From contig JAUXUL010000044.1 in NCBI GenBank assembly GCA_030680795.1, positions 1 to 32,991 of the forward strand: a stretch of DNA of 32,991 nt, in the 5' to 3' direction. Origin of the DNA: Anaerolineales bacterium. GTDB lineage: Bacteria; Chloroflexota; Anaerolineae; Anaerolineales; Villigracilaceae. This document shows, one piece after another, positions 11,487 through 29,851 of this stretch (positions within the stretch are counted from its first letter, which is position 1; every line of letters starts with the position of its first letter). The translations under genes were made by a program, and so were the position numbers. The notes under the pieces were generated by a model. That model saw nothing but the letters and a program-made list of their open reading frames with translations. It did not search any database and was not told where the DNA came from.

Positions 11487-12606
11487 GGCTCACCTTCCGT
11501 GGCAGAAATATGGAACTCACAACAATCGAGACAACGATCAAACCAATCGCAAGCGGATACAAAATCATTGGGTCGTATTCATACAATAAACCTGCAATGG
11601 GCGGCGTGAGAATGAAGATCACCGAACTGACGGTTTCCATGATGCCATAAGTAATTCCCATTTGCGATTCATGGACAAGTTCGCGCGCTTGCGCCATTGC
11701 CATGGGTCGAGCTGCACGGAAACCTCCAAGCAGGAAGTATCCTAATGCAAAAATGGGCAAAGCCGTGCCTTTCCAAATGAACAAGGCAAACAGGATAACA
11801 AACGTCTGCGCAAACAAAAATCCTTTTCGAGGATTGACACGGCTGAATGCAATCGCCATCAACGAGTTCCCCAGCGCGCCCACTGTAAAGATCAACCCTG
11901 TCTGACTCAATGAAAGTCCGCGCACGCCTTCGAGAAAGTTTGGTGTAAGCGGCTGCGCGATATACATTGCAAATATGGAAAATATAATAACACCAATAAG
12001 AGTAATAAACCGTTGATTACTCCTCAGGCCTGGCGGTGGGGCATCAGGGTCATGATTGTCAACTGGCTGGCGCTTTATGAAAATTATGAACATGTTCGAA
12101 ATAACGAACACAGCTGCCGCAACATAGAAACTCATCCGCATGCCGTAATGATCGCCGATCCACCCGCCGGTCACAGGGCCGAGTACCATGCCCATGCCAA
12201 AGGTCGCAGTGGTCAGCGAAAGCACGGTCCCCACAGACCACTTGCCGCGCGCCGCAGTTACATAACTGCTCAGCGGGGATGCGACAAAAGCTGTCAGTCC
12301 ATAGGCAAATAAACCGACCAGAAAAAGCGGTAAAGCCAGGGCAAACCCCATCGTCAATGTAGAAACCAAACCGAGCAGCCAGGCAATAATGAGCAAAGGT
12401 CTGCGCCCAATTCGGTCTGCGAGACGACCAGCCGGAATGTGTGTAATGGCCATGAAAAAACCGAACGCGCCCAGGATCAAACCAATTTCATATTTGTTCA
12501 ACAGAAATTGAAGATCGAGATAAATCGGCACAAAGTTAAAGAACATCCCTTCGCCAAAACCCCAGAGAAACAATGCGGCGGCGACAAAAAATAGATTACG
12601 ATTCAA
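11479..12606 (-). CDS. Major facilitator superfamily transporter
   Basis: This 375-aa protein has about 12 hydrophobic segments and the MFS loop motif GRLADRIGRRPLL at about residues 61-73. A second family-typical stretch is GILMGILTPP-like in SVIFILTPPIAGLLYEYD near the C-terminus. The start is a TTG at 12604-12606 preceded by AGGA; no better ATG exists upstream. It follows the esterase in the aro block after a palindromic repeat of about 80 bases and overlaps the downstream hydrolase. The substrate is unknown. Its place at the end of an aromatic biosynthesis operon might suggest export of an aromatic compound, but many MFS genes sit in unrelated operons. Confidence 0.83.
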   Translation of the reverse strand: MNRNLFFVAAALFLWGFGEGMFFNFVPIYLDLQFLLNKYEIGLILGAFGFFMAITHIPAGRLADRIGRRPLLIIAWLLGLVSTLTMGFALALPLFLVGLFAYGLTAFVASPLSSYVTAARGKWSVGTVLSLTTATFGMGMVLGPVTGGWIGDHYGMRMSFYVAAAVFVISNMFIIFIKRQPVDNHDPDAPPPGLRSNQRFITLIGVIIFSIFAMYIAQPLTPNFLEGVRGLSLSQTGLIFTVGALGNSLMAIAFSRVNPRKGFLFAQTFVILFALFIWKGTALPIFALGYFLLGGFRAARPMAMAQARELVHESQMGITYGIMETVSSVIFILTPPIAGLLYEYDPMILYPLAIGLIVVSIVVSSIFLPRKVSHA

Positions 12607-12618
12607 ATTTCCTCACAT

Positions 12619-12698
12619 ATGTCATTGCGAGGAGGGCGCCTTTCCCGACGAAGCAATCTCATGTTACGATGAGGCTACTTCGTTCCTCGCAGTGACAT
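12619..12698. repeat. Palindromic repeat, family A copy 1
   Basis: The arms are ATGTCATTGCGAGGA (12619-12633) and TCCTCGCAGTGACAT (ending 12698), with GACGAAGCAATCTC inside. It fills the gap between the esterase and MFS genes. Other copies are at 13919, 15597 and 25188. Confidence 0.85.
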
Positions 12699-12701
12699 GG
12701 T

Positions 12702-13472
12702 TCATTTTTCGATATGATTGATAAAATTCCGTGCGACTTCAAATACTTGATGACGAGCCGCATCCCGTGTGACAACGTGGCCTGATCCCGTTACATAAAG
12801 TTTTGTCTTGTCTGACGCATTGACCAGTCCCGCGTAAATCCTTTCCATATTTTCAGGCTGAACATACGGGTCATCTTTGGAATGGATCAGCATCACAGGC
12901 TTTCTAACCTCAGGCAGCGCGGCTTGCATCTCATTGAGCAATAACTTCAACTCCACTACTGAACTCATCGGGTTTTTCGGATATGAAACATGTTCGGCAT
13001 ACGCGGCTTTGTCAAACCACGAAGCGCCAGGCGTTTCTTTGGATTTTGGGTTATCGCGAAAGAATATGCTGTATAAACGCAGCGCCCAAAGGGGATGATC
13101 ATTTGGCAATTGATACGGCGTGGACATCGCCACCACACCCGCCACATCCAACTTTGTAGACATCAACAATGACAACACACCGCCCATCGAAAGCCCAACG
13201 AGGAATACTCGGTTAACACTGCCACGCAGGAGATGATAGCCATCTTGGACAGAAGCAGTCCAATCGGTCCAGCGGGAGCGGCGCATATCTTCGAGGTCGG
13301 TTGCATGTCCGTTGAGTCGGATCCCCAAACAGGTCAATCCCCGCTGATTAAAATATTCCCCCATCCAACGCATATCCTTGGGTGTGCCGGTGAATCCATG
13401 AATGAGTAAAATTCCTGTTTTATTCCCTTGAAGAAAAAAAGGTTCGGCAGTTGGTAAGATCTGATTATTCAC
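12702..13472 (-). CDS. Alpha/beta hydrolase, carboxylesterase/monoacylglycerol lipase type
   Basis: The 256-aa serine hydrolase has its nucleophile in GLSMGG (S near residue 95), an acid in HSKDDPYV and a catalytic His in GSGHVVTRD. The oxyanion-hole segment is LIHGFTGTPKDM. This layout and length match the Est30/bacterial monoglyceride lipase family, which hydrolyses short or medium acyl esters. The start is GTG at 13470-13472, overlapping the aroQ stop as GTGA, so it is translated with the aromatic operon although it has no known shikimate role. It could be a housekeeping ester hydrolase carried in the transcript. Confidence 0.87.
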   Translation of the reverse strand: MNNQILPTAEPFFLQGNKTGILLIHGFTGTPKDMRWMGEYFNQRGLTCLGIRLNGHATDLEDMRRSRWTDWTASVQDGYHLLRGSVNRVFLVGLSMGGVLSLLMSTKLDVAGVVAMSTPYQLPNDHPLWALRLYSIFFRDNPKSKETPGASWFDKAAYAEHVSYPKNPMSSVVELKLLLNEMQAALPEVRKPVMLIHSKDDPYVQPENMERIYAGLVNASDKTKLYVTGSGHVVTRDAARHQVFEVARNFINHIEK

Positions 13473-13903
13473 GGCTTGATTATATCAATCAACCCGCGCA
13501 AGCCCAGCTCGTAAGACCGCCAGCCAAAGCCGACAACCTTTCCCTTGCACACCGCCGAGATCATCGAAACATGGCGGAATTCCTCGCGCACATACACATT
13601 GGATAAATGCGCTTCGATGACAGGAATTTGAATCGCCGAGATCGCATCACGCAATGCAACTGAAGTATGTGTGTATCCGCCAGGGTTGAACACAACTCCA
13701 CTCGCCCAGGTACGCGCATCCTGCAAGGCATCGATCAACGCGCCTTCGTGATTCGATTGCAGACATTTTATTTCAGCGCCCAACTCTTTTCCCAACTCGA
13801 TCATCTTTTTATTAATGTCATCCAGAGTCATCGAACCATAAATCTCGGGTTCGCGCGTGCCTAACAAATTTAGGTTGGGTCCGTGCAAGATCAGTATTTT
13901 CAT
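13469..13903 (-). CDS. aroQ: 3-dehydroquinate dehydratase, type II
   Basis: This 144-aa enzyme catalyses the third shikimate step, 3-dehydroquinate to 3-dehydroshikimate. The start ATG at 13901-13903 (MKILILHGPNLNLLGTREP) follows AGAGGAAAT. The family landmarks are GPNLNLLGTREPEIYG, with the catalytic Tyr in EIYG, then the QSNHEG loop, NPGGYTHTS, and EAHLSNVYVREEFRH with the catalytic His. Length is standard for type II dodecameric enzymes. It is separated from aroKB by a palindromic repeat of about 85 bases and overlaps the following esterase. The longer upstream frame reads through the repeat and is not used. Confidence 0.97.
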   Translation of the reverse strand: MKILILHGPNLNLLGTREPEIYGSMTLDDINKKMIELGKELGAEIKCLQSNHEGALIDALQDARTWASGVVFNPGGYTHTSVALRDAISAIQIPVIEAHLSNVYVREEFRHVSMISAVCKGKVVGFGWRSYELGLRGLIDIIKP

Positions 13904-13918
13904 ATTTCCTCTTTTCAT

Positions 13919-14005
13919 GTCATTGCGAGCCGTTCTTTGGCGAAGCAATCTCCCACACTGTGTCTGAGATTGCTTCGGGCGGAAGAGCACCGCCCTCGCA
14001 ATGAC
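13919..14005. repeat. Palindromic repeat, family A copy 2
   Basis: GTCATTGCGAG (13919) and CTCGCAATGAC (ending 14005) are perfect 11-base arms. Inside, GAAGCAATCTC pairs with GAGATTGCTTC. It ends three bases before the aroKB stop codon and occupies the aroKB-aroQ gap. Confidence 0.88.
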
Positions 14006-14007
14006 GG

Positions 14008-15585
14008 TTATTTCAACACCGATTCTAAATCCATCACATCCACCAACTCCACTTTGCCGATCTCAACAGGTAACGCGAATCGAATTGCATTTGCATTCTT
14101 CTTTTTATCCACTCTCATCGCACGAATAATTTCCTCGCGCAGCATATTTTCTGGGATATGGATGGGCAACCCCAACGCTTTGAGCGACTCAGTCACCGCT
14201 TCCACCAACCCGACGCCTGCCAGCCCAACCCGGGCAGAATACTTCGCCTCAGCCACCATACCAATGGCAATGGCTTCTCCATGCCGCAAATTGAACCTGC
14301 TGACAAGTTCCACCGCGTGCCCAACGGTGTGTCCCAAATTCAACGCCGCACGGAATCCTTTTTCGTACGGATCTTCTTCGATAACCTGTATCTTCACTGC
14401 CATCGCGCGTTTGACGATTTCTTCCAAATTATCTTTTACAGAATCCAGTCCACGCGCACATAGTGAGAATAATTCAGGGTCAGAGACAATGCCATGCTTG
14501 ACCACTTCCGCCATGCCAGAGATCAATTCCGCTTCGGGCAGTGTCTTCAATAATTGCGGATCTGCCAACACCAATCTGGGCGGATAAAACGAACCGATAA
14601 GATTCTTTCCTTCTGGCAAATCAAAGCCTGTCTTTCCACCAAGGGAGGCATCCACCATGGAAAGTAAAGTTGTCGGCACAGCCACCCAATTTATCCCACG
14701 CATGTAGGTTGACGCGGCGAACCCCGCCATATCACCAATTACACCGCCGCCCAACGCAATGACCGTGCTTTGGCGGTCAAGTCCATTTTCAAGAAATGAT
14801 TTCCATAAACCAGAAACCGTCTTCAATTCTTTGTAGGCTTCTCCAGCAGGAACAGCGATTACTTTTGGGTCAAATCCCGATGAACGCAAAGCAGCAACCA
14901 CCTTTACAGCGTGGAACTTCGCCACGTTTTCATCGGTCACGATGATCGGGTTTATTAATCTGCGTTCGGAGAAATAGTTGCCAACTTGCTCTACATTCTG
15001 CACAACCACGTCATACTCGGCCATCGCAGACAAGTGATGCCGTCCCAACACCACCTGCACGTGATGCGCGTTTTGTTCAGCAGTTTTTCCATCAACGTGA
15101 ACGATCAGAGGAAAGGAATTGTAATGCTCGCCGCGCTTTGCGAGCAATGAAGAGAGTTTCGCGTTCAAATCCCCTGCCAATAAGGGGCGCTTTCCAAAGT
15201 TGTTATGTAATCGCTCCAGCAAAGTGGATAATTCTGCCATCAACAAAATGACTTTGCCATTGTTTTCTGCAAATGCACGATTCTCGTCTCGCAACAAGGC
15301 GCCCCCACCGAGTGCAACAACCAATGTAGGGCCGGTTTGTGACCCGCCAGGTTTTTTAGCATTTATCACGCTCAAAGCGTGACCTATAGTTTCTTTCAGG
15401 GCGGCGGTTTCCAAATCACGAAAAATGGATTCACCCTGCTGTTCCAAGATCTGTGGAATGGACATGCCCGCGTTCGTTTCGATGACGCGGTCAAGGTCTA
15501 TGAAGGAGAGTTTTAGACTCCGCGCGAGGATTTTCCCAACTGTGGATTTGCCTATCCCAGGCGGGCCGTAGAGGAAGATGTGCAT
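14008..15585 (-). CDS. aroKB: Bifunctional shikimate kinase / 3-dehydroquinate synthase (AroK-AroB fusion)
   Basis: The 525-aa protein joins two pathway enzymes. Residues 1-185 are shikimate kinase: P-loop GPPGIGKST at 7-15, FIDLDRVIE, IFRDLE with the shikimate-binding Arg, ALGGGALL, and RPLL of the lid. Residues about 190-525 are dehydroquinate synthase: EAYKELKT, ALGGGVIGDMAGFAAS, VPTTLLSMVDASLGGKTG, metal-binding ELISGMAEVVKHG, and LNLGHTVGHAVE with RHGEAIAIGM. The domains catalyse steps 5 and 2, so the fusion does not link consecutive reactions. AroKB fusions are known in Thermotoga and, I believe, Chloroflexota. GGAGAAAC precedes the ATG. The gene lies between two family A repeats. Confidence 0.96.
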   Translation of the reverse strand: MHIFLYGPPGIGKSTVGKILARSLKLSFIDLDRVIETNAGMSIPQILEQQGESIFRDLETAALKETIGHALSVINAKKPGGSQTGPTLVVALGGGALLRDENRAFAENNGKVILLMAELSTLLERLHNNFGKRPLLAGDLNAKLSSLLAKRGEHYNSFPLIVHVDGKTAEQNAHHVQVVLGRHHLSAMAEYDVVVQNVEQVGNYFSERRLINPIIVTDENVAKFHAVKVVAALRSSGFDPKVIAVPAGEAYKELKTVSGLWKSFLENGLDRQSTVIALGGGVIGDMAGFAASTYMRGINWVAVPTTLLSMVDASLGGKTGFDLPEGKNLIGSFYPPRLVLADPQLLKTLPEAELISGMAEVVKHGIVSDPELFSLCARGLDSVKDNLEEIVKRAMAVKIQVIEEDPYEKGFRAALNLGHTVGHAVELVSRFNLRHGEAIAIGMVAEAKYSARVGLAGVGLVEAVTESLKALGLPIHIPENMLREEIIRAMRVDKKKNANAIRFALPVEIGKVELVDVMDLESVLK

Positions 15586-15596
15586 GTTTCTCCATT

Positions 15597-15692
15597 CGTC
15601 ATTGCGAGGAGCGCTCTAGTTCTTCGCGACGAAGCAATACCCAACAACGAGGAGATTGCATCGGGCGGACAATCACAGCCATCGCAATGACG
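15597..15692. repeat. Palindromic repeat, family A copy 3
   Basis: CGTCATTGCGA (15597) and TCGCAATGACG (ending 15692) are perfect outer arms, with GACGAAGCAAT and GATTGCATCGGGC inside. It fills the gap between aroC and aroKB. Confidence 0.87.
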
Positions 15693-15700
15693 TAAAATTT

Positions 15701-16900
15701 TTATTCCCAAAAGATGTATGAAGTGTTATCCATCGGTAAGTCTTCAAGCGTTGCTTTTCGCAAAGCCTCGAAGCGCGGTTTCATTTCATTCATCGAGTCA
15801 CCGCCGAGTTTTTCAATGAGAGCATCAGCTAAGACAAAAGCGATCATCGCTTCTAAAATTGGAACGGCACGCGGAACGGGACAAAAATCGGAGCGTTCAT
15901 ATTTGGTGGGAGATTCTGTCCCTGATGCAAGGTCAACTGTCGGCTGGGGAAGAAGCGTGGTGGCAATTGGTTTCATCGCCGCGCGGATGATGATCGGTTG
16001 TCCATTGCTAATTCCGCCTTCGATTCCGCCTGCTCGATTGGAATTACGAATTAGGAATTGCGACCCTTCGACTGTGCTCGGGGCAGAATTAGGAATTAGG
16101 TTGATCGCGTCCTGAACTTGTGTGCCTGGCAGGCGGGCGTTATTGAACGCGTCACCGACTTCCACGCCTTTGATGGCCTGCACGGACATAATGGCCAGGG
16201 CAAGTTTTGCTTCGAGGCGTTTATCCCATTGGACAAAGCTGCCGAGTCCGACGGGAAGATTGAGCGCGACAATTTCAAGAACCCCACCCAAAGTGTTTTT
16301 GCCATGAATAGTCTTTTCGATTTCAGCGTGCATTTTTGCAGCAGAGGTTTCAACGGGACAACGCACATCGGATTCTTCGGCGCGGGTGAAGCGTTCTTCG
16401 TAAGGCATGTCCCCAAAATCGGTTTGCACTTTGCCAATGGATGAGACATACCCACCGATGATGATTCCAAACTGTGCAAGAAAATTCTTGCACACCGCCC
16501 CTGTTGCTACACGCATGGTCGTTTCGCGGGCAGAAGCGCGTTCAAGCGCGGGTCGTAAATCTTTGTAGCCATATTTCACTGCGCCTGTTAAGTCCGCATG
16601 ACCCGGACGAGGCGCGGTCATCGACTCAATGGCTTTGCCTTTCCATTTGACATGGTCATTGTTTTGGACGAGCAAGGCAATCGGCGCGCCTGTGGTTTCA
16701 CCTGCCATGACTCCGCCAAGAATTTGCACGGTGTCCTTTTCAATTTTCATACGCCCGCCCGAACCGTAGCCCTGCTGACGGCGAGCGAGTTCTTTGTTGA
16801 TGATTTCAGGTTTGATGGCGAGTCCAGCGGGCACGCCCTCGAGGATGGCGGTGAGGGATGGTCCGTGGGATTCTCCTGCTGTTAAGAAGCGTAGGGGCAT
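15701..16900 (-). CDS. aroC: Chorismate synthase
   Basis: This 399-aa enzyme converts EPSP to chorismate, the final shared step, using reduced FMN. The N-terminus MPLRFLTAGESHGPSLTAILEG is diagnostic, followed by RRQQGYGSGGRMKIE, RPGHADLTGAVKYG and ASARETTMRVATGA. The later landmarks are NRAGGIEGGISNGQPI and KPIATTLLPQPTVD. GGAGAC lies upstream of the ATG. An oddity at about residues 268-288 is the stretch NLIPNSAPSTVEGSQFLIRN just before NRAGG. It is longer than I expect for the family and is encoded by repeat DNA (see repeat at 16040-16101), yet the frame is kept. Confidence 0.96.
   Translation of the reverse strand: MPLRFLTAGESHGPSLTAILEGVPAGLAIKPEIINKELARRQQGYGSGGRMKIEKDTVQILGGVMAGETTGAPIALLVQNNDHVKWKGKAIESMTAPRPGHADLTGAVKYGYKDLRPALERASARETTMRVATGAVCKNFLAQFGIIIGGYVSSIGKVQTDFGDMPYEERFTRAEESDVRCPVETSAAKMHAEIEKTIHGKNTLGGVLEIVALNLPVGLGSFVQWDKRLEAKLALAIMSVQAIKGVEVGDAFNNARLPGTQVQDAINLIPNSAPSTVEGSQFLIRNSNRAGGIEGGISNGQPIIIRAAMKPIATTLLPQPTVDLASGTESPTKYERSDFCPVPRAVPILEAMIAFVLADALIEKLGGDSMNEMKPRFEALRKATLEDLPMDNTSYIFWE
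16040..16101. repeat. Repeat inserted in frame within aroC
   Basis: GAATTACGAATTAGGAATTG and AGAATTAGGAATTAGG flank a core CCCTTCGACTGTGCTCGGGG, which resembles half of the family B palindrome. It lies inside aroC and is translated without breaking the frame, giving about ten extra residues before the conserved NRAGGIEGG. Confidence 0.6.
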
Positions 16901-16914
16901 TTAGGTCTCCAGTG

Positions 16915-16977
16915 ATCAGTAATCAGTAACCCGTTATCAGTAATCAGTGTGCTAGGAAAGATGAAAGAAGAAAGATT
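16915..16977. repeat. Heptamer tandem repeat, aroE-aroC gap
   Basis: The sequence divides into seven-base units in one phase: ATCAGTA, ATCAGTA, ACCCGTT, ATCAGTA, ATCAGTG, TGCTAGG, AAAGATG, AAAGAAG, AAAGATT. This is the pattern of short tandemly repeated repetitive (STRR) sequences. It fills most of the 87-base gap between aroE and aroC. Confidence 0.75.
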
Positions 16978-16987
16978 GGTTGGTGAT

Positions 16988-17818
16988 TTATTGGTCAACG
17001 CTTTGTAACAAAATCTCGCGCGGTGGATTATGACCTGTCCAGATTTCGAAAGAGAGCGATGCTTGTTCAATGAGCATACCCAAGCCTGTGGTGGCTTGCA
17101 ATCCCTGCGTGTGCGCGTCTTTGACAAGTTTGGTTTCTCGTGGATTGTAGACCAAATCGTAAATTAAAGTATTTGAAGGCAATGACAGTTTTTCAGGCAG
17201 CGGAGATTGGTCTATGTTTGGGGTCATACCAATGGGAGTAGTATTTACGATTAGTTGCAAGTAAGAAAGGTTGAAAGTTTGAAAGTTAAGTTCCATCACA
17301 TTAACGCCCACAAATCGCCAAGATAATTCTTGAGCCTGTTCGATGCGGCGCGCGGTGATATTTACATTCCAGCCATCATTGAGCAAGGCATACACAACCG
17401 CGCGAGCAGAGCCGCCTGCACCCAAGATGATTGCCGATTTACGTTTTACGATTTTCGATTGATTTCTGGCTAGAAAATGATTCAGGTCTTTGAGAAATCC
17501 AAACGCATCGGTGTTATCGCCAACCAGTTTATTATCTCTTGAATAAATGGTGTTTACTGCGCCGATGGCTTGGGCGGTGAGATCGAGCTCATCCATGAAC
17601 TCGATCACATTTTGTTTGTGTGGAATGGTGACATTGAGTCCTGTGATTTCACCAGAGCGGACTCGGGCGAGCAAATCTTTCAAACCTTGTTTGTCGTCAG
17701 GATGAATGGGAAATAGGGAATAGTCACCTTGCAATCCACACGCTTTCAAAGCCGCAGTGTGAATTTTTGGGGACAAGCTATATCCCAACGGAAAACCGAT
17801 CAGGCCGAGATGAATCAT
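16988..17818 (-). CDS. aroE: Shikimate 5-dehydrogenase
   Basis: This 276-aa NADP enzyme reduces 3-dehydroshikimate to shikimate. The landmarks are GLIGFPLGYSLSPKIH at the N-terminus (shikimate pocket), catalytic K68 in NVTIPHKQNV, D104 in GDNTDAFGF, the dinucleotide loop ILGAGGSARAV at about 130-140, NTTPIGM, and GLGMLIEQA near the end. Two stretches are encoded by short tandem repeats: NQSKIVKRKS before the GAGG loop and NFQTFNLSYL before VNTTPIGM. These look like translated repeat DNA that the fold tolerates at domain edges. The start overlaps the aroA stop by four bases. Confidence 0.95.
   Translation of the reverse strand: MIHLGLIGFPLGYSLSPKIHTAALKACGLQGDYSLFPIHPDDKQGLKDLLARVRSGEITGLNVTIPHKQNVIEFMDELDLTAQAIGAVNTIYSRDNKLVGDNTDAFGFLKDLNHFLARNQSKIVKRKSAIILGAGGSARAVVYALLNDGWNVNITARRIEQAQELSWRFVGVNVMELNFQTFNLSYLQLIVNTTPIGMTPNIDQSPLPEKLSLPSNTLIYDLVYNPRETKLVKDAHTQGLQATTGLGMLIEQASLSFEIWTGHNPPREILLQSVDQ
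17257..17290. repeat. Octamer tandem repeat inside aroE
   Basis: GAAAG recurs every eight bases (GAAAGGTT, GAAAGTTT, GAAAGTTA) and is translated as part of the stretch NFQTFNLSYL in AroE. Confidence 0.5.
17434..17468. repeat. Heptamer tandem repeat inside aroE
   Basis: Units CCGATTT, ACGTTTT, ACGATTT, TCGATTG and ATTTCTG follow in one seven-base phase. They encode NQSKIVKRKS immediately before the NADP-binding glycine loop of AroE. Confidence 0.6.
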
Positions 17819-19137
17819 CGCAAAGTTTCCAGCACTTCAAAATAATCGGGGAATGTTTTGGAGACGCAGGATGGGTTTTCAATGGTCACACCGTTGAAGC
17901 GTAGACCGATCAACGAAAAGGACATGGCCATGCGATGGTCGTTATAGGTTTGGATGAGGGCAGGCCGCGTCTTTTCTACGGGATAGATGGTCATGCCATC
18001 TTCATGTTCTTCCACTCTGACGCCGAGTCGCGCGAGTTCGGTGCAGGTCGCATGGACACGATCTGTCTCTTTCACACGTGCTGAAGCAATGCCGCGAATT
18101 CTCGTTGGCGAGGAGGCGAAAGGGGCGACGGCAGCGAGGGTTTGGGCGGTATCGGGGATGTCGCGCATGTCTATGTCAATTCCACACAGGTTTCCTGACC
18201 TGCGTGCAACGCTTATGGAATCTGCGCCGTCTGTGATTACACATCCCATTTTTTGTAAAACATCCAGAAACGCAATATCGCCTTGTTTGGATTTGCGCGA
18301 GATGTTTTCCACGCAGACTGTCCCGCCGCAAATGGCGGATGCGGCGAAGAAGTAGGAGGCGGCGGAGGCGTCAGACTCGATTGCATAAGTGGAGGAGGGT
18401 TGAGAATTGGAGATTGGTAATTGGTAATTGGTAATTGGGATGGAGAAGAATTGGTAAGCATTTCGTTTTACTTCAACACTGAAATCTTGCATAACGGCAA
18501 TGGTCATGTCCACGTAGGGTTTTGAATTCAGTTCTGTTGTCAGGGTGATTTCAATTGGGTTTTGAGCATACGGGGCAACCATCAACAAGGCAGAAAGAAA
18601 TTGGGATGAAATATCGCCAGCAATTCTTGTTTTTCCGCCAGGCAAACCGTTGGCAAAGATTTTTACAGGAGGGCAGGCTGAAGAAGGACGAAGGCTGAAC
18701 GCTTCGCGTGAAGGCTGAATTGGTTGAATGTTTGCGCCGAGTTGCGTCAAAGACTCCACTAAATCCCCGACAGGTCTTGCTCTCATGCGCGCGTCACCAT
18801 CCAAAATGAATTCGCCGTTGCCAAGCGTGAGAAATGCGGAGAGGAAGCGCGCAGCGGTGCCTGCGTTGCCGATGAAAAACTCGGCTTTATCAGCAGGGAT
18901 TACTCCGCCCAAGCCCGTGATGATCATTTCATGATTTGCTTCATCAAGTTGAATATCGAAGCCAAGAGTTTGCAGGGCTTTGGCAAAATAACGCGAGTCG
19001 TCCGAGAACAAGGCATTGGTTAAGCGCGTAGTTCCATTTGCAAGTGATGCAATCAGCAAGGCGCGATTGGTCAATGACTTGGAGCCAGGCACACGGACGG
19101 TGGCGGAGAGGGGATGTGTAATCGGGGTGATTAGCAT
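17815..19137 (-). CDS. aroA: 3-phosphoshikimate 1-carboxyvinyltransferase (EPSP synthase)
   Basis: This 440-aa enzyme joins shikimate-3-phosphate and phosphoenolpyruvate. The landmarks are VPGSKSLTNRALLIASLA at 16-33, NAGTAARFLSA at 91-101, DGDARMRARPVGDLVESL, GDISSQFLSALLMVAP at 175-190, ESDASAASYFFAA and KETDRVHA, with the C-terminal TYNDHRMAMSFSL. The sequence type NAGTAARF differs from the glyphosate-sensitive class I consensus NAGTAMRP. Two probable in-frame repeat-derived inserts lie at about residues 139-153 (QPSREAFSLRPSSA) and 234-247 (ITNYQLPISNSQ). The ATG lacks a Shine-Dalgarno; the bases before it are a heptamer repeat. The stop overlaps aroE. Confidence 0.95.
   Translation of the reverse strand: MLITPITHPLSATVRVPGSKSLTNRALLIASLANGTTRLTNALFSDDSRYFAKALQTLGFDIQLDEANHEMIITGLGGVIPADKAEFFIGNAGTAARFLSAFLTLGNGEFILDGDARMRARPVGDLVESLTQLGANIQPIQPSREAFSLRPSSACPPVKIFANGLPGGKTRIAGDISSQFLSALLMVAPYAQNPIEITLTTELNSKPYVDMTIAVMQDFSVEVKRNAYQFFSIPITNYQLPISNSQPSSTYAIESDASAASYFFAASAICGGTVCVENISRKSKQGDIAFLDVLQKMGCVITDGADSISVARRSGNLCGIDIDMRDIPDTAQTLAAVAPFASSPTRIRGIASARVKETDRVHATCTELARLGVRVEEHEDGMTIYPVEKTRPALIQTYNDHRMAMSFSLIGLRFNGVTIENPSCVSKTFPDYFEVLETLR
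18401..18441. repeat. Heptamer tandem repeat inside aroA (insert 2)
   Basis: ATTGGTA is repeated three times and followed by ATTGGGA; GAGAATTGGAG precedes it. It is translated as ITNYQLPISNSQ, just ahead of the conserved ESDASAASYF of EPSP synthase. Confidence 0.75.
18677..18722. repeat. Tandem repeat inside aroA (insert 1)
   Basis: GAAGGCTGAA occurs twice around CGCTTCGCGT, with a degenerate GAAGAAGGAC before. It is translated as QPSREAFSLRPSSA between LGANIQPI and PPVKIF of EPSP synthase. Confidence 0.6.
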
Positions 19138-19143
19138 GGGAAA

Positions 19144-19206
19144 GGATGAAGGGTGAAGGCGGAAGGATGAAAGAGGAAAGATGATATCAGTAATCAGTTT
19201 TCAGTG
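19144..19206. repeat. Nine-unit heptamer ladder between aroA and tyrA
   Basis: In strict seven-base phase the units are GGATGAA, GGGTGAA, GGCGGAA, GGATGAA, AGAGGAA, AGATGAT, ATCAGTA, ATCAGTT and TTCAGTG. It fills the 56-base gap. On the left it reaches to within 7 bases of the aroA start codon. On the right it supplies the last codons and stop of tyrA (TEN-stop). Confidence 0.85.
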
Positions 19207-20057
19207 AGGGATTTGTATGCGGTGCGGGATTGGTTGAGGAGGAGTTCGAGTTGTGTATCGTTCTCGTCTTGCAAGGCAGATTCGATTTCGTTGAGGGAAT
19301 TTCGGAATTGTCGAATTGAATTGAGGATGTTTTCTTGATTCGATTTGAAGATGCCCATCATCATGCGGGCGGGCGTTCCTGCGAGACGGCTGGTGGAGCG
19401 GAAACCTGGACCGATCAGAGATGCGAAATCAGGTGAGGTTGAATGTGCGAGAGCAGAAGAGAGCAGAAACGGTAAATGACTTGTGGATGCAAGGATGCGG
19501 TCATGCTCCTCGGCGGTCATTTCGATGAGGCGTGCGCCGATTGTTGAAATGAGTTGAGTAATGGCAGATTTTGCTTGATGTGTTGTGCGCTCTAAAAGAG
19601 TAGTTACAAAAGGAGCGTCTTGATATAAATTTGGGTCCGCATTTTCCAAACCCGGTTTTTCTTTTCCGCAGATGGGGTGTCCGCCGACGGGGTCAAATCG
19701 TTCGGGCAAAATGGACATGGCTTGTAGGATGTCTTGCTTGGTGGAACCCAAGTCTATAATGATGCAGGGATTGGGCATGAGGGATGGCAAACGCTGAATG
19801 ATGTTTATGATTGACTGCACGGGGGTCGCGAGGATGAGCAAGTCCACTTGAGGGAGGAAGGTTGCCAAGTCTGCTGAGGCGTGGTCAATGATATTTTTGG
19901 AAAGAGCAAGTTCGAGCGTGGGAGGATGCGAGTCGAATCCAATCAGGCGGGCACAATGTCCTTTGAGGCGCATGGCGAGCGAGCCGCCCATGAGTCCCAA
20001 TCCAAAAATCCCAATGGTTGAATCTTTCAGCGAAAAGCCAGATTCCATGATTACCAT
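19194..20057 (-). CDS. tyrA: Prephenate dehydrogenase
   Basis: This 287-aa NAD(P)-dependent enzyme leads from prephenate toward tyrosine. The Rossmann loop GIFGLGLMGGSLA lies near residues 17-29. Further family stretches are LLILATPVQS, DLGSTKQDI, GGHPICGKEKPGLENAD, EEHDRILASTSHLP with the catalytic His, and GPGFRSTSRLAGTPARMM. There is no ACT domain, so feedback control by tyrosine would have to come from elsewhere. The start may be M1 at 20057 or M4; both are compatible with coupling to the overlapping aroF stop. The final residues are supplied by the heptamer repeat. Arogenate specificity cannot be excluded. Confidence 0.92.
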   Translation of the reverse strand: MVIMESGFSLKDSTIGIFGLGLMGGSLAMRLKGHCARLIGFDSHPPTLELALSKNIIDHASADLATFLPQVDLLILATPVQSIINIIQRLPSLMPNPCIIIDLGSTKQDILQAMSILPERFDPVGGHPICGKEKPGLENADPNLYQDAPFVTTLLERTTHQAKSAITQLISTIGARLIEMTAEEHDRILASTSHLPFLLSSALAHSTSPDFASLIGPGFRSTSRLAGTPARMMMGIFKSNQENILNSIRQFRNSLNEIESALQDENDTQLELLLNQSRTAYKSLTEN

Positions 20058-21097
20058 CCAGCAGTGACAGATTTATTGATGGGCGCAACACAGCGACCCA
20101 TGATTTCGGCAATGGCTTTGACCTGCTTGACCATCTCGGCAAATTTTTCAGGCTTGAGGGATTGCTTGCCATCGGAGACAGCCTTGGCGGGATCAGGGTG
20201 GACTTCAACAATTAGACCATCGGCGCCTGCCGCAATTGCAGCGCGCGCGATCGCGGCGACATAATCGGCATGACCCGTTGCATGAGATGGATCAAGAATA
20301 ACGGGAAGATGCGTGAGTTTTTTGAGAACAGGAATTGCATTGATGTCGGTTGTGTTGCGCGTGGCGGTCTCAAAGGTGCGGATGCCGCGCTCACATAACA
20401 AGACCTGCTTGTTGCCACCCGCGAGAATATATTCAGCAGACATGAGCAATTCTTCGATGGTGGCGCTTAGACCACGTTTAAGCAAAACACTTTTACGCGT
20501 TTCACCGATGGCGCGCAGAAGGTTGAAGTTTTGCATGTTGCGCGCACCGACTTGAAAAACATCCACATATTTCAGCATGAGATCAAGTTGAGTCTGTGAC
20601 ATGATCTCGACCACGATGGGCATACCCGTTTGCTCACGCGCTTCCGCCAGGTATTCGAGACCTTCTTCGCCGAGACCTTGAAAGGCATACGGTGAGGTAC
20701 GCGGTTTGAAGACTCCGCCGCGTAAAGCATTCGCGCCTGCTTCACGGACAGCGTGCGCGGTTTCAAGAATCTGTGAACGGGATTCAACGGAACAGGGCCC
20801 AGCCATGATGACGATGTCGTCGCCGCCAACGGTGAATCCATCGATCGGGAAAATTGAATTTTCAGGATGCACTTGACGCGAGCCAAGTTTGAAGGGTTGT
20901 GAGATTCGCTTGACGCTCTCGACCCCTTCCAAAGCTTCAAAGGGATCCATTGTAGGTGTGTGGAATTCACCGACCGCGGCGATGATGGTGGTCTCGACAC
21001 CGTGTGTGATGTGCGGAGTCAGTCCATGCACTTTGGCGGTATTTACCACTGTCTCAATTTGCTGAGGTGTGGAATTGGGTTTCATGATGATCAACAT
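20051..21097 (-). CDS. aroF: 3-deoxy-7-phosphoheptulonate synthase (DAHP synthase, type I-beta)
   Basis: This 348-aa enzyme catalyses the committed step, phosphoenolpyruvate plus erythrose-4-phosphate to DAHP. Residues 1 to about 70 form a ferredoxin-like N-terminal domain (MLIIMKPNSTPQQIETVV ... VEGVESVKRI-like), as in the Thermotoga enzyme, where it mediates allosteric feedback. The barrel starts at about 95 with MAGPCSVESRSQILE and includes GGVFKPRTSPYAFQG, QVGARNMQNF, VLLKRGLSAT, LCERGIRTFE and DPSHATGHADYV. The ATG at 21095-21097 has GGAG upstream; the 20-residue extension to 21157 is unlike the family. The gene is second in the operon after aroH. Confidence 0.96.
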   Translation of the reverse strand: MLIIMKPNSTPQQIETVVNTAKVHGLTPHITHGVETTIIAAVGEFHTPTMDPFEALEGVESVKRISQPFKLGSRQVHPENSIFPIDGFTVGGDDIVIMAGPCSVESRSQILETAHAVREAGANALRGGVFKPRTSPYAFQGLGEEGLEYLAEAREQTGMPIVVEIMSQTQLDLMLKYVDVFQVGARNMQNFNLLRAIGETRKSVLLKRGLSATIEELLMSAEYILAGGNKQVLLCERGIRTFETATRNTTDINAIPVLKKLTHLPVILDPSHATGHADYVAAIARAAIAAGADGLIVEVHPDPAKAVSDGKQSLKPEKFAEMVKQVKAIAEIMGRCVAPINKSVTAGW

Positions 21098-21145
21098 AGG
21101 GTCTCCTAAGGGATGTCGGATAAAAAATATTATACAAGTACGCAT

Positions 21146-21217
21146 GTAAACAGGCAAACAGGTTTACAGGTCGGTCGAAGAATTGTCTGCTTGTTTACTT
21201 GAGTACCTGCCTGCTTC
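21146..21217. repeat. Octamer tandem repeats, aroH-aroF gap
   Basis: GTAAACAG, GCAAACAG, GTTTACAG and GTCGGTCG run in one eight-base phase at 21146-21177. TCTGCTTG, TTTACTTG, AGTACCTG and CCTGCTTC run in another at 21186-21217. The two arrays are roughly complementary and could fold on each other. Confidence 0.6.
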
Positions 21218-21218
21218 C

Positions 21219-21590
21219 TCACTGCGCGGCAACTAAGTCTGGTCTCAAACTTACCGCGTCGCGCAAATATACGTGGGTGATTTCATTTTGCGGTGTTTCC
21301 GTATTCCAATGGACAAGTACACGAATGACTCTTGGCAAACTGCCTGGCACGGGGATCTCGCAGGCACACATCATCGGGACGAGCTCCCAGCCCATTTGTC
21401 GGGCTGCCTGTGCAGGGAAGGTGGCGGCGAGGTCTTCAGTCACTGTGAACAAGGCGCTGGCTACATCTTCGGGAGTCATTCCAGAATTTGCTTCCAGAAT
21501 GGCTTCCAGTAATTCCCGCGTAGCTTCAAGGATTGAGTCCAGCTCATCTGCCTGGACTGTGGTTGCGCCGCGGATTCCACGAATTGACAT
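21219..21590 (-). CDS. aroH: Chorismate mutase, AroH class
   Basis: This 123-aa enzyme rearranges chorismate to prephenate, feeding Phe and Tyr synthesis. It matches the trimeric Bacillus-type Aro[10 protein letters not shown] at the N-terminus with the active-site Arg, then [47 protein letters not shown] and [14 protein letters not shown]. Length is standard. A strong ribosome binding site AGGAG stands eight bases before the ATG, at the foot of a hairpin (21599-21635). It is the first structural gene of the aromatic operon and lies directly behind the leader peptide and attenuator. Confidence 0.95.
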
Positions 21591-21598
21591 AAATTTCT

Positions 21599-21635
21599 CC
21601 TGTGTGAAATCCGCAGATTACGCAGATTTCACAGG
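21599..21635 (-). promoter_or_regulatory. Hairpin overlapping the aroH ribosome binding site
   Basis: On the minus strand CCTGTGAAATC (21625-21635) pairs with GATTTCACACAGG (21599-21611), with a two-base bulge. The AGGAGA ribosome binding site occupies 21596-21601, so its first bases are in the stem. It may tune aroH translation or be an incidental palindromic repeat. Confidence 0.4.
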
Positions 21636-21645
21636 TTGGGATAAC

Positions 21646-21677
21646 AAAAAAGAGCGAGACCGTGTGGTCCCGCTCTT
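21646..21677 (-). terminator. Intrinsic terminator (attenuator) upstream of aroH
   Basis: On the minus strand AAGAGCGGGACC-ACAC-GGTCTCGCTCTT forms a 12-bp stem with one G-U pair and a four-base loop, followed directly by a T run (CTCTTTTTTG). It lies 55 bases ahead of the aroH start and 30 bases after the leader-peptide stop codon. Because it stands between the promoter and the operon, its natural role is conditional termination. Confidence 0.85.
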
Positions 21678-21723
21678 CTACGTGAACAGCTATATTCTCT
21701 GTTTACTTAAGCGCCACCAACGG
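21660..21723 (-). promoter_or_regulatory. Candidate antiterminator pairing
   Basis: The minus-strand sequence CCGTTGGTGG (21714-21723), the last codons of the leader peptide, can pair with CCACACGG (21660-21667), which spans the terminator loop and the start of its 3' arm. Eight pairs form with a two-base bulge. The two structures are mutually exclusive. A ribosome finishing the leader would cover CCGTTGGTGG; a ribosome stalled upstream at aromatic codons would leave it free. Confidence 0.6.
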
Positions 21724-21784
21724 CAACCGAACCTCGGAAACCGTAATAAAAATAAAACACAAACCAGCGGGTGGAGTTAAGCAT
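21707..21784 (-). CDS. Aromatic leader peptide of the shikimate operon
   Basis: A 25-codon frame starts at ATG 21782-21784 and ends in TAA at 21707-21709. Residues 7-16 are WFVFYFYYGF: one Trp, four Phe and three Tyr in ten codons, followed by a Gly/Val/Ala-rich tail (RGSVAVGGA). The frame lies about ten bases after a promoter -10, so the mRNA would be leaderless or nearly so; no Shine-Dalgarno is seen, in keeping with other genes here. It is followed by an intrinsic terminator and then aroH. I infer that stalling at these codons when charged aromatic tRNAs are scarce relieves termination. It was too short to be called as an ordinary gene. Confidence 0.82.
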   Translation of the reverse strand: MLNSTRWFVFYFYYGFRGSVAVGGA

Positions 21785-21794
21785 ATTGGTCGCT

Positions 21795-21823
21795 ATTCTA
21801 TGCCTGTCATGCGGATACGTCAA
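21795..21823 (-). promoter_or_regulatory. Promoter of the aromatic (shikimate) operon
   Basis: On the minus strand TTGACG (21818-21823), exactly 17 bases of spacer, then TAGAAT (21795-21800). The expected start of transcription falls within a few bases of the leader-peptide ATG at 21784. Both elements match the sigma70 consensus in five of six positions. Confidence 0.75.
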
Positions 21824-21898
21824 GAGGCAAATTTGAATTGTTAGCCCAATGTTAAAATGTCACCTGTTTTCTCAAGGTAGTTGGACAAAACGGGGTCT

Positions 21899-22019
21899 GT
21901 CATGCTGAGGGGCGGTTTTCCCTGGCACCGCCCGCCAGGGCAGGTGTGCCCCGAAGCATCTCTACGACACCGTTAGAGATGCTTCGGTCGCTGAAGTGCG
22001 TTCCCTCAGAGGGACATAA
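21899..22019. repeat. Palindromic repeat, compound element
   Basis: The outer arms TGTCATGCTGAGG and CCCTCAGAGGGACATAA are imperfect. Inside are two perfect hairpins: CCCTGGC/GCCAGGG (21920-21940) and GAAGCATCTCTA/TAGAGATGCTTC (21953-21985). It resembles family B in ending with GGGACATAA but has a different core. Confidence 0.75.
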
Positions 22020-22084
22020 TTTATGACTTTGAGAAGGCCGTGTCATAAGAGGGTACCCCCGCTTCATAATATTGAGGTTGGCAG

Positions 22085-22096
22085 TATAATCATTAT
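22085..22096 (+). promoter_or_regulatory. -10 box placing coaBC on a leaderless transcript
   Basis: TATAAT at 22085-22090 is a perfect -10, and the ATG at 22097 begins seven bases after it ends. Transcription would start at the start codon. No Shine-Dalgarno is present. The -35 is weak (CTTCAT at 22062-22067 at 17-base spacing). Confidence 0.55.
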
Positions 22097-23326
22097 ATGT
22101 CCATCCTTTCAGGAAAGCACATTTTACTTGGCGTGACGGGGTCTATTGCGGCGTACAAAGCGGCAGACCTGGCTTCCAAGTTAACACAAGCCGGCGCACA
22201 GGTGGATGTGATACTGACAGGCGCGGGCGAAAAGTTTGTGACACCGCTTACCTTTCAATCCGTCACTGGCCGCCGCGCATATACAGATAATGACTTGTGG
22301 GGAAATGAAGCGCATATTTTACATGTCACTTTCGGAAAAACAGCCGATATACTTGTGATTGCACCTTGCACCGCAGATACAATGGCAAAGCTCGCGCATG
22401 GTATTGCAGATAACTTACTAACCGTCACTGCGCTTGCGGCGGCTTGTCCGATTCTGATCGCGCCCGCAATGGATGGCGGCATGTTCGATCACCCCGCCAC
22501 GCGAGCAAATCTCGCGGCGCTTCAATCGCACGGAGTGCTGGTTGCTGGTCCTGCGGAGGGGTACCTCGCTTCGGGGCTTTCGGGCAAGGGACGCATGGTT
22601 GAGTCTGTAGAAGTACTTGGTCATATCCGCAATGTTCTGGGTAAACGAGGAAAACTTGCAGGAAAGAAAATTATTGTCACAGCAGGTGGGACTCAGGAAG
22701 CAATTGACCCTGTCCGCATCCTCACGAATCATTCAAGCGGCAGGCAGGGATATGCGCTGGCCCAAGCCGCTCTCGATTCAGGCGCAGACGTGTGCCTGAT
22801 CACAACACCGACAGCATTGACTCCACCTGTTGGCGCGCGGGTTGTATGCGTAAAAAGCGTGCAGGAAATGCTGGATGTATTGATAAACGAATCTGCTGAC
22901 GCGCTGATCATGGCGGCCGCCGCGGCAGATTTCCGCCCAAAGCAGGTTGCCAAGGAAAAAATGAAAAAGCGGGATGGCATTCCGCAGATCGAACTCGAAG
23001 CCGCGCCTGATATTCTAAAAATAGTCACATCGTCTCCGCTCGGAGCAGGATCAGGCTCACCAGCAGGAAAGAAGCGCTTTAAAGTTGTTGTGGGGTTTGC
23101 AGCGGAGAGTCAGGACCTGCTCGAAAACGCAGCTGAAAAGTTACAATCCAAAGGTTTGGATTTTATCGCCGCCAATGACATCTCTGCAAAGGATGCGGGG
23201 TTTGCCATTGAAACAAACCGCATTACCTTGTTATTCGCAAATGGGACACAGGAAATTTTGCAGTTGATGAGCAAGACCGAAGCGGCTGAAAAGATCATCG
23301 AACATACAGCGAGGCTGTTGGAGTAA
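22097..23326 (+). CDS. coaBC: Bifunctional phosphopantothenoylcysteine decarboxylase / phosphopantothenate-cysteine ligase
   Basis: The 409-aa protein performs two steps of coenzyme A synthesis. The FMN-binding CoaC half (1 to about 180) has VTGSIAAYKAADL, the His of EAHILHV (equivalent to E. coli H75), IAPCTADTMAKLAHGIADNLL and PAMDGGMFDHPAT. The CoaB half (about 185-409) starts KIIVTAGGTQEAIDPVRILTNHSSGRQGYALA and includes AAAAADFRP and VVGFAAES, with a C-terminal NDIS. Two CoaC positions differ from E. coli Dfp: Asn125 of PAMN is Asp (PAMD), and Cys158 of ACG is Ser (LASGLSGKGRM). I recall similar variants in related phyla. It is two bases from the next gene. Confidence 0.94.
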   Translation: MSILSGKHILLGVTGSIAAYKAADLASKLTQAGAQVDVILTGAGEKFVTPLTFQSVTGRRAYTDNDLWGNEAHILHVTFGKTADILVIAPCTADTMAKLAHGIADNLLTVTALAAACPILIAPAMDGGMFDHPATRANLAALQSHGVLVAGPAEGYLASGLSGKGRMVESVEVLGHIRNVLGKRGKLAGKKIIVTAGGTQEAIDPVRILTNHSSGRQGYALAQAALDSGADVCLITTPTALTPPVGARVVCVKSVQEMLDVLINESADALIMAAAAADFRPKQVAKEKMKKRDGIPQIELEAAPDILKIVTSSPLGAGSGSPAGKKRFKVVVGFAAESQDLLENAAEKLQSKGLDFIAANDISAKDAGFAIETNRITLLFANGTQEILQLMSKTEAAEKIIEHTARLLE

Positions 23327-28540: not shown

Positions 28541-29851
28541 TTATGTGTAGTGCAGCTCTTTCGCCTGCCTTTGCAATTCTTCCTGGAATTGCGGATGCGC
28601 GATCTTGATCAGAGCCTGCGCGCGCTGACGGATGGTCTTTCCATATAGATCGGCTACGCCGTACTCCGTCACTACAAAACGGACGTGATTGCGGCTGGTC
28701 ACCACACCAGCGCCATGTTTAAGCATGGCGGCGATTTTGCTGATTTGTGTCCCATCTCGCATGACCGCTGTGCTTGGCAGGGCAATGATCGGCACGCCGT
28801 CCTTGGAGCGGGATGCGCCGTAAATAAAATCCAATTGCCCGCCGACGCCGCTGTAAAGTTTTGGTCCAATGCTGTCGGCACAAACCTGGCCGGTAAGATC
28901 CACTTCAATGGCGGAGTTAATGGCCACCATGCGGTCGTTTTGCGCGATGACGAATGGATCATTCACGTATTCCGTGCGATGCAGTTCGATCATTGAGTTA
29001 TCGTCCACCCATTCATACAAGCGCTTCGTGCCAAGGATAAAACCTGCCACGATCTTGCCCGGGTGCAGAGATTTGCGGGCATTCGTCAACACGCCGGCAT
29101 TGACAAGGTCAATCACACCATCCGAGAATAATTCTGTATGAATACCCAAATCCTTTTTATCGAAAAGATATTTCAAGACTGCATCTGGAATTCCGCCGAT
29201 ACCAAGCTGCATGGTCGCGCCATCGGGAATTAATCCCGCCACATGCCCGGCGACCTTTTGGACAATTTCCGCATCGCCTTCATCAGCCATGGGGAGTTCC
29301 GGAATATCGTAATTGACAGGCACAATATGGGTCAGACGGCTGACATGAATGAAGGAATCGCCCAAAGTGCGGGGCATTTTTTCGTTCACTTCGGCAATGA
29401 CCACCTTGGCCGATTCCGCCGCAGTCTTGGTCAAACCGACTTCAACGCCAAGACTGCAAAAGCCGTGTTCGTCCGGAGTTGATACATGGACAATGGCAAC
29501 ATCCAGAGGCAGGATACCTTGCTTGAACAACAAAGGAAACTCAGAAAGCAACACAGGTGTGAAGTCTGCGCGGCCCTCCTGAACAGCCTTGCGGATATTG
29601 GCGCTGATGAACATGGAGTTCACCCGCAAATGACCTTCCATGGCAGGATCGACGTAATCTGCCGCACCAACCGTCAGCGCCTGGCAAATCTCCACGTCTT
29701 TTAATGTGGGAGCAATCTCCACCAGCGCCGCTAATAGTGTCTGAGGGACGGACACATTTCCCGTCAGAAAGACGCGCTGTCCCGATTTGATCACTTTCAC
29801 TGCTTCCTGAGCAGTGGTCACTCGTGATTGATAAATACTTGTATCAGTCAT
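28541..29851 (-). CDS. Acetyl-CoA hydrolase/transferase family protein (4-hydroxybutyrate CoA-transferase-like)
   Basis: The 436-aa family I CoA-transferase has an N-terminal half with LTGNVSVPQTLLAALVE and a C-terminal half with GIGGIPDAVLKYL at about 217-229. The catalytic Glu is in HTELFSDGVIDL near residue 240, and GVGGQLDFIYGAS and VTEYGVADLYGKT follow. Length matches 4-hydroxybutyrate or butyryl-CoA:acetate CoA-transferases, which move CoA between organic acids in anaerobic fermentation. The exact acid is not readable from sequence. It starts four bases after the ald stop, so the two form an operon that could link alanine-derived pyruvate and acyl-CoA metabolism. Confidence 0.9.
   Translation of the reverse strand: MTDTSIYQSRVTTAQEAVKVIKSGQRVFLTGNVSVPQTLLAALVEIAPTLKDVEICQALTVGAADYVDPAMEGHLRVNSMFISANIRKAVQEGRADFTPVLLSEFPLLFKQGILPLDVAIVHVSTPDEHGFCSLGVEVGLTKTAAESAKVVIAEVNEKMPRTLGDSFIHVSRLTHIVPVNYDIPELPMADEGDAEIVQKVAGHVAGLIPDGATMQLGIGGIPDAVLKYLFDKKDLGIHTELFSDGVIDLVNAGVLTNARKSLHPGKIVAGFILGTKRLYEWVDDNSMIELHRTEYVNDPFVIAQNDRMVAINSAIEVDLTGQVCADSIGPKLYSGVGGQLDFIYGASRSKDGVPIIALPSTAVMRDGTQISKIAAMLKHGAGVVTSRNHVRFVVTEYGVADLYGKTIRQRAQALIKIAHPQFQEELQRQAKELHYT

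Follow-up and report, generated by a model that had tools for sequence, protein, structure and literature searches.

A probable ribosome-mediated attenuator reading phenylalanine and tyrosine codons ahead of a shikimate operon in Anaerolineae

The region in front of aroH in the window (the whole stretch of 32,991 nucleotides that was analysed) very probably encodes a ribosome-mediated transcription attenuator that reads charged tRNA-Phe and tRNA-Tyr. Sequence comparison established the leader with its codon bias, the terminator and a covarying pairing between segments 2 and 3 of the leader RNA. The attenuator and the switching logic proposed in the preliminary description of this DNA are strongly supported by the comparison across families, both by the terminators (118/123) and by the 2:3 covariation. 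Confidence in this reading is slightly lowered because of the stop-codon geometry of some leaders and because of a promoter-like site inside the operon.

The leader region lies between aroH and the divergent coaBC gene, which starts at 22097 on the plus strand. Promoter, ORF, small hairpin, terminator and aroH follow one another in this order, all on the minus strand (Table 1). The three elements first recognized there were confirmed, namely the promoter TTGACG-17-TAGAAT (21823-21795), the 25-codon ORF with aromatic codons at positions 7-16 (21784-21707) and the 12-bp GC-rich hairpin with a T run before aroH (21677-21646), all on the minus strand. Given the composition of 17 window proteins, the chance of finding at least eight aromatics in ten residues is 8e-9 per position. 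The aroH gene of the window has an AGGAG ribosome-binding site, located 3' of the terminator. A palindrome, GAAATCTGCGTAATCTGCGGATTTC, was also observed between the terminator and aroH (21606-21630); it is present as a single copy in the genome (up to 2 mismatches), and a similar stretch occupies the same place in another locus (L048).

Table 1. Features of the leader region and of the genes behind it (window coordinates).
Feature	Positions	Strand	Remarks
-35 box TTGACG	21818..21823	-	TTGAC at the same place in most of 49 listed leaders
-10 box TAGAAT	21795..21800	-	17-nt spacer to -35; 10 nt from its end to the leader ATG
Leader peptide ORF MLNSTRWFVFYFYYGFRGSVAVGGA + TAA	21707..21784	-	25 codons; counterparts in 123/195 distinct aroH loci
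Control codons 7-16, W F V F Y F Y Y G F	21737..21766	-	F/Y interchange at positions 10-13 (24 leaders of the same type)
Segment 1, ACGGU at 21744-21740	21727..21744	-	can pair with GCCGU 21724-21720, start of segment 2
Segment 2, antiterminator 5' strand CCGTTGGTGGCGCTT	21709..21723	-	within the ORF end, overlaps the stop codon
Small hairpin ACAG...CTGT, between leader stop and terminator	21686..21702	-	83.1% of cells paired
Segment 3, terminator 5' arm and loop, partner of segment 2	21660..21675	-	pairing evidence across families
Intrinsic terminator	21646..21677	-	12-bp stem, ACAC loop, T run; 96.8% of cells paired in the 49-leader alignment
aroH, monofunctional chorismate mutase	21219..21590	-	TIGR01796, 154 bits
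DAHP synthase	20051..21157	-	TIGR01361/NF006421; start codon uncertain
Prephenate dehydrogenase, tyrA-like	19194..20057	-	matches below curated cut-offs
aroA, EPSP synthase	17815..19137	-	TIGR01356
aroE, shikimate dehydrogenase	16988..17818	-	TIGR00507
aroC, chorismate synthase	15701..16900	-	NF003793/TIGR00033
aroK-aroB fusion, shikimate kinase / 3-dehydroquinate synthase	14008..15585	-	TIGR01357 on residues 198-517
aroQ, type II 3-dehydroquinate dehydratase	13469..13990	-	TIGR01088

Behind the leader, eight co-oriented genes cover all seven shikimate steps together with chorismate mutase and the Tyr-branch dehydrogenase, which bears out the complete shikimate pathway noted at first sight; the shikimate kinase matches at the N-terminus of the aroK-aroB fusion were below cut-off. 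Gene order and strand suggest that aroH to aroQ form one operon. Between aroH and the DAHP synthase gene, a promoter-like site, TTGCCT-17-TATAAT, is found at 21157-21129 on the minus strand. It is not conserved, with at least 9 of 12 matches in 5 of 51 loci, the window's included, compared with 7.6% of shuffles. This site is probably due to chance; it could free the later genes from the leader.

The occurrence of the leader was studied in stretches upstream of aroH, which came from relatives, from the matches listed in 396 genomes belonging to the class and 301 to the phylum, and from loci taken by place. This gave 195 distinct stretches of at least 350 nt, those with identical last 150 nt being counted once. 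A leader was defined as an ATG-started ORF of 10-60 codons on the sense strand, at most 450 nt before aroH, with at least six aromatics in ten residues, W, F and Y being counted alike. Such an ORF was present in 123 of the 195 distinct loci among the matches listed, whereas comparison sequence from the same loci contained 10 in 983 kb (strands counted apart), and the antisense strand of the same upstream stretches contained none. The aromatic leader before aroH is real and occurs far beyond chance. With each locus assigned to the class or elsewhere by the search that brought it in, the 123 leaders comprise 117 in the 142 class loci, 6 in 50 loci from the phylum's other classes (L211 and L222 being doubtful) and 0 in 3 other named loci. 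Among the 25 class loci failing the strict definition, 12 carry a variant that has five aromatics or starts with GTG or TTG. The named contigs with the closest aroH are mostly MAGs of Anaerolineales, Anaerolineae or Chloroflexi, apart from a few at low identity; Anaerolineales are part of the Chloroflexota. The weak second matches of the search model R1 (L238-L242) were tried as aro leaders and rejected, being without an ORF with at least six aromatics in ten; L241 (G027) coincides with a Thr-rich leader before aspartokinase, and the other matches were treated as chance.

The terminator hairpin of the window, AAGAGCGGGACC-ACAC-GGTCTCGCTCTT (21677-21650) followed by T's, has 14 counted pairs. 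Of the 12 terminator-like sites in 12600-22100 it is the longest, those next in length having 7. Shuffles of this region yield 11.0 terminator-like sites of any size. The fold of the 139-nt leader RNA has -50.6 kcal/mol, compared with -34.2 kcal/mol (sd 3.6) in shuffles (z -4.5). In an alignment of 49 distinct leaders of the window's relatives (A1), 33 cells of the terminator were changed on both sides. All four pairs of the small hairpin at 21702-21686 also show changes on both sides in A1, and this hairpin perhaps serves for pausing, or for bringing segments 2 and 3 together. By script, the aromatic leader was followed by a terminator in 118 of the 123 loci; of the other five, L083, L084, L177 and L208 have an evident hairpin by eye and L211 has none. 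Some of the script-picked hairpins (e.g., L085, L222) seemed wrong on inspection but were retained in the counts. Both the aromatic-rich frame (123/195 loci) and the terminator behind it are conserved in relatives.

The end of the leader ORF (CCGTTGGTGG) had been described as able to pair with the terminator loop (CCACACGG); this pairing is real and extends further, to 13 bp in all. In the window, CCGU-UGGU-(GG)-CGCUU (21723-21709) pairs with GAGCG-(GG)-ACCA-(C)-ACGG (21675-21660). Other families have their own partners: in L093, GGCUCCAUGC pairs with GCGUGGAGCC, using other letters than the CCGU-UGGU / ACCA-(C)-ACGG of the window; in L107, CUGGCUGC-(GA)-CGCGC pairs with GCGUG-(GA)-GCAGCCAG; and family-specific 2:3 partners are likewise found in L145, L160, L179 and L190. 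For the pairing tests, leaders were omitted if the hairpin found by the script was weaker than -8 kcal/mol or exceeded 48 nt, or if less than 15 nt preceded it. This left 111 leaders, or 106 distinct ones with identical leader peptides counted once. Pairing of segments 2 and 3 was better than in dinucleotide shuffles (p ≤ 0.05) in 74 of the 106. In a swap test with row and column means removed, the own partners of the 106 leaders were better than swapped ones by 3.8 kcal/mol (z -14, 0/20,000 permutations), and the difference was 4.3 kcal/mol (z -11, 0/20,000 permutations) for the 60 leaders taken as outside the genus. It is strongly supported by these comparisons that the 2:3 partners differ between families yet change together. 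Within A1 alone, the 2:3 helix keeps 90.9% of its pairs and covaries little, with 6 pairs changed on both sides (small hairpin included) versus 4.4 in shuffles.

Segments 1 and 2 can also pair. The minimum-energy fold of the untranslated window leader consists of the 1:2 helix, the small hairpin and the terminator, and the 1:2 pairing encloses a small hairpin, CCGA-GGU-UCGG (21737-21727). In A1, 87.5% of the cells of the 1:2 helix are paired. As a general protector helix, the 1:2 pairing was above shuffles in just 6 of the 106 leaders across families.

The proposed attenuator would work as follows. Transcription would start a few bases upstream of the leader ATG, giving a leaderless or near-leaderless RNA on which ribosomes would load. 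With enough Phe and Tyr, the ribosome would reach the stop codon and cover segment 2, and segment 3 would then pair with segment 4, leading to termination before aroH. Under Phe or Tyr shortage, the ribosome would stall on the F/Y codons and open segment 1, the free segment 2 would capture segment 3 to form the antiterminator, and RNA polymerase would read through into the shikimate operon. The genes behind aroH would depend on the leader promoter.

The position of segment 2 is consistent with this mechanism in most leaders. It begins within the leader ORF in 105 of the 106, and its start lies 13-19 nt past the last aromatic codon in 79 (median 16), the distance being 13 nt in the window. A ribosome is reported to cover up to about 12 nt downstream of the stop codon (PMC4833913). 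Given this footprint of about 12 nt and the spacing of 13-19 nt, a ribosome on the last control codon would just leave segment 2 free. A ribosome at the stop codon would cover segment 2 in most leaders; in 21 of the 106, more than 20 nt separate the end of segment 2 from that of the stop codon, and segment 2 would therefore be covered incompletely.

Ribosome positions were also evaluated in a crude fold model, in which equilibrium 2:3 pairing is calculated for an RNA that is truncated at the terminator loop and has 30 bases masked as the ribosome. The mean 2:3 probability of the 106 leaders was 0.54 with the ribosome at the last aromatic codon, 0.22 with no ribosome and 0.16 at the stop codon, a low value that results in large part from the mask. 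The probability at the last aromatic codon exceeded that at the stop by more than 0.3 in 56 of the 106 leaders, and the order was reversed in 5. For the window leader, the model gave about 0.5 at codons 3-10, aromatic or not (lowest 0.47), rising to 0.86-0.88 at codons 11-12 and falling to 0.69 at codon 13 and to nearly 0 at codons 14-16. Codon 17 gave 0.29, codons 18-26 no more than 0.1, and the ribosome-free RNA 0.

The amino acids that would be sensed can be read from the ten-residue core, which has 6-9 aromatics. In 118 distinct leaders, the core contains F in 117, Y in 118 and W in 55, and W makes up 54 of 767 core aromatics (7.0%, 106 leaders) compared with 9.3% in the 17 window proteins. 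F/Y counts at positions 10-13 were 14/10, 10/14, 13/11 and 12/12 in 24 leaders of the window's type, which have 25 aa and were chosen for R-W at positions 6-7, so the W there is fixed by choice. As read from these codons, the conserved signal is Phe and Tyr, and Trp is not conserved. Of the joint sensing of Trp, Phe and Tyr originally proposed, the Phe and Tyr parts are conserved and the Trp part is not. A Phe and Tyr signal fits the operon, since chorismate mutase and prephenate dehydrogenase are encoded beside the common pathway.

A true three-way sensor, where starvation for Trp, Phe or Tyr alone would each relieve termination, is unlikely. The window leader does have a W, nine codons before the last aromatic codon, as do 33 of the 49 leaders of its relatives, but across families W is found in just 55/118 leaders and is not enriched, and leaders of the RFYFAYYF type are without it. 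The fold model still gives 0.5 for the 2:3 pairing with the ribosome at this codon 7, although the value is the same at the non-aromatic codons 5, 6 and 9. Upstream of trpE, no ORF with two Trp in ten residues was found in 8 loci within 450 nt (two loci having just 143 and 342 nt), so the need for Trp might be signalled at aro. Trp sensing in the window's own lineage is possible. Short Trp-Trp ORFs at trpE were considered as Trp leaders and rejected, as they are readings of another frame within the trpE coding region; the GWW peptide encoded there (L243-L250, L254) mimics a Trp leader in ORF scans.

The motif CCGTTGG(T/C)GGCGCTTAAG is found in 32 leader loci, in one frame in 27 (..VAVGGA) and in another in 5 (..LPLVALK etc.). 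Since F and Y interchange and the segment 2 nucleotides are kept across frames, a functional peptide or an arrest peptide is disfavoured. The leaders argue for selection acting on codons and RNA, not on the peptide sequence. An arrest of the ribosome by the nascent peptide (TnaC/SecM-like), answering an aromatic amino acid or a related metabolite instead of uncharged tRNA, would suit an aromatic-rich leader, and known arrest peptides do contain aromatic residues. Such peptides depend on particular residues at set distances, whereas in the aro leaders F and Y interchange at positions 10-13, the core length is variable and the C-terminal part changes frame, with no fixed critical residues of the TnaC type at fixed positions; such an arrest is very improbable. 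A small functional protein followed by an ordinary terminator and an independent aroH promoter downstream is hardly credible either: the ORF is conserved and the ribosome-binding site of aroH lies behind the terminator, but the peptide is conserved in its aromatic class only, the terminator covaries with the ORF end and no promoter-like site was found on the minus strand between terminator and aroH.

Concerning initiation of the attenuator leader, the end of the -10 box is exactly 10 nt from the leader ATG in 51 of the 118 distinct leaders, and a -10 box lies 3-14 nt before the ATG in 70 of the 118 compared with 131 of 615 shuffled controls. The Shine-Dalgarno match is weak before leaders (mean 3.1/6) and strong before aroH (4.9/6). 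Because of the 10 nt between -10 box and ATG and the weak Shine-Dalgarno match at leaders, the leader transcript is probably leaderless or near-leaderless in the order of the window. The best promoter match in several other families is 25-40 nt upstream, and therefore close promoter-ATG spacing is not universal. In E. coli, attenuator leaders have Shine-Dalgarno starts. For attenuators of this kind in C. glutamicum, leaderless transcripts were reportedly described by Neshat et al. in 2014.

The architecture resembles that of the E. coli trp, pheA, his, leu, thr and ilvGMEDA attenuators, which likewise have a leader ORF with control codons, an intrinsic terminator and an alternative antiterminator, but serve other amino acids or branches. 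Mixed sensing as such is not new, since some E. coli attenuators, e.g., those of ilvGMEDA and thr, respond to several amino acids. T-boxes of low-GC Gram-positives sense tRNA charging for aromatic genes and no leader peptide is read; unlike these, the aro leader is without a T-box match. The ilvGMEDA and thr attenuators are listed in PMC1183508, and Tyr T-boxes are cited in PMC1262725.

The closest likeness is to aroR of C. glutamicum, a leader with Phe-Tyr-Phe before the DAHP synthase gene aroF (PMC4046766, PMC11802643), whose attenuation answers Phe limitation, Tyr availability being without effect (PMC11802643). By analogy, the aro leader, also an F/Y leader, may work alike. It differs in several respects: in aroR, from Actinobacteria, the DAHP synthase gene is directly behind and a run of three codons is described, whereas here aroH comes first and the DAHP synthase gene second, 6-9 of 10 residues are aromatic, genes for all seven shikimate steps lie behind the leader and the hosts are Anaerolineae. 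The uORFC-13-1 motif of Acholeplasma aroF has a uORF with at least one Phe codon, a promoter and a terminator (PMC8632094); it has a ribosome-binding site, is reported from Acholeplasma and environmental sequences only, and is described without a mixed F/Y run. A 2005 comparison of Actinobacteria reports no conserved structure before Phe/Tyr operons (PMC1262725), and a leader-gene survey mentions Chloroflexi as too sparsely sampled (PMC4833913).

No leader-peptide attenuation in Chloroflexota was met among the matches listed from the open literature searched. The early impression that the element appears new was therefore right in part: its kind is known from C. glutamicum aroR, while the literature searched contained no case in this phylum, before a whole-pathway operon or with a class-wide spread. 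At gathering score, the window had 0 Rfam matches (Trp_leader RF00513, T-box and other families), a relaxed E-value on 21560-21900 gave matches far below gathering scores, and 18 trpE/pheA loci gave no match beyond chance at gathering score. Annotation that depends on Rfam would accordingly miss the aro leader. The element offers a concrete and testable control mechanism at the entry into the synthesis of aromatic amino acids in a large class that is mostly uncultured, and would show that one attenuator can stand before a whole common pathway and not one branch. In addition, about 100 distinct covarying leaders are available for studying leader ribosomes, antiterminators and near-leaderless initiation together.

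The more novel part, within the literature searched, is the phylum, the spread and the candidate sister leaders before hisG, aspartokinase and argG. In the genome that contains the window, 17 places fit the pattern TTGAC-N17..19-TANNAT-N7..11-ATG, most of them leading into other ORFs, while a reversed control gave none. A candidate His leader, MNSMFAHNHHVHHHMPPKTGRFCART, stands before hisG (G000:C9, ATG near 29317, minus strand; L274/L307), with a hairpin and T run by eye. Among 19 hisG loci of relatives, 16 have a leader with at least four His in eight residues, and of the three without one, two offer just 262 and 60 nt of upstream sequence; the 19 come from 20 places, the one left out being a contig-end fragment. 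Before aspartokinase, a candidate Thr leader, MHSTLNNACFGTMSMTTTTSRSRRENFVLGQK, is likewise followed by a hairpin and T run by eye (G000:C45, ATG near 49331, minus strand; L285/L327). It carries ..MSMTTTT.., and relatives have MTMTTT; by reading of ORFs, a Thr-rich leader was found in 19 of 25 loci (of 26 places above cut-off, one had no locus). Joint Thr/Met sensing by this leader is possible.

Before the argininosuccinate synthase gene (argG), the candidate Arg leader MFSCFALPRTRRPKPTSQRRSGFFCFDGGTNAIVR, which includes ..RTRRPKPTSQRR.., also has a hairpin and T run by eye (G000:C9, ATG near 21012, minus strand; L273/L385). RTRRP recurs in relatives, and an ORF with at least three Arg in ten residues was found at the promoter-ATG match in 15 of 23 loci. 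Leu/Val/Ile leaders before ilvB, with at least six such residues in eight within 600 nt, were found in 0 of 18 loci. It is likely that Anaerolineales run much of their amino acid biosynthesis through genome-wide leaderless or near-leaderless attenuators, for aro, hisG, aspartokinase and argG; that these leaders share the promoter-to-ATG geometry is a likely part of the same reading. If true, this would be attenuation on the scale of a regulon in a phylum without any met in the literature searched, and mixed codon runs (F/Y, M/T) would make one switch answer the shortage of either end product of a shared pathway.

A further short ORF, MSEIIRGKHLFPHHFFGMLISVL, with a close promoter and then a terminator-like hairpin, was observed in the same genome (G000:C45 near 174546, plus strand; L286). 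The gene behind it resembles, by eye, a uracil/xanthine permease, which perhaps points to nucleotide-linked attenuation.
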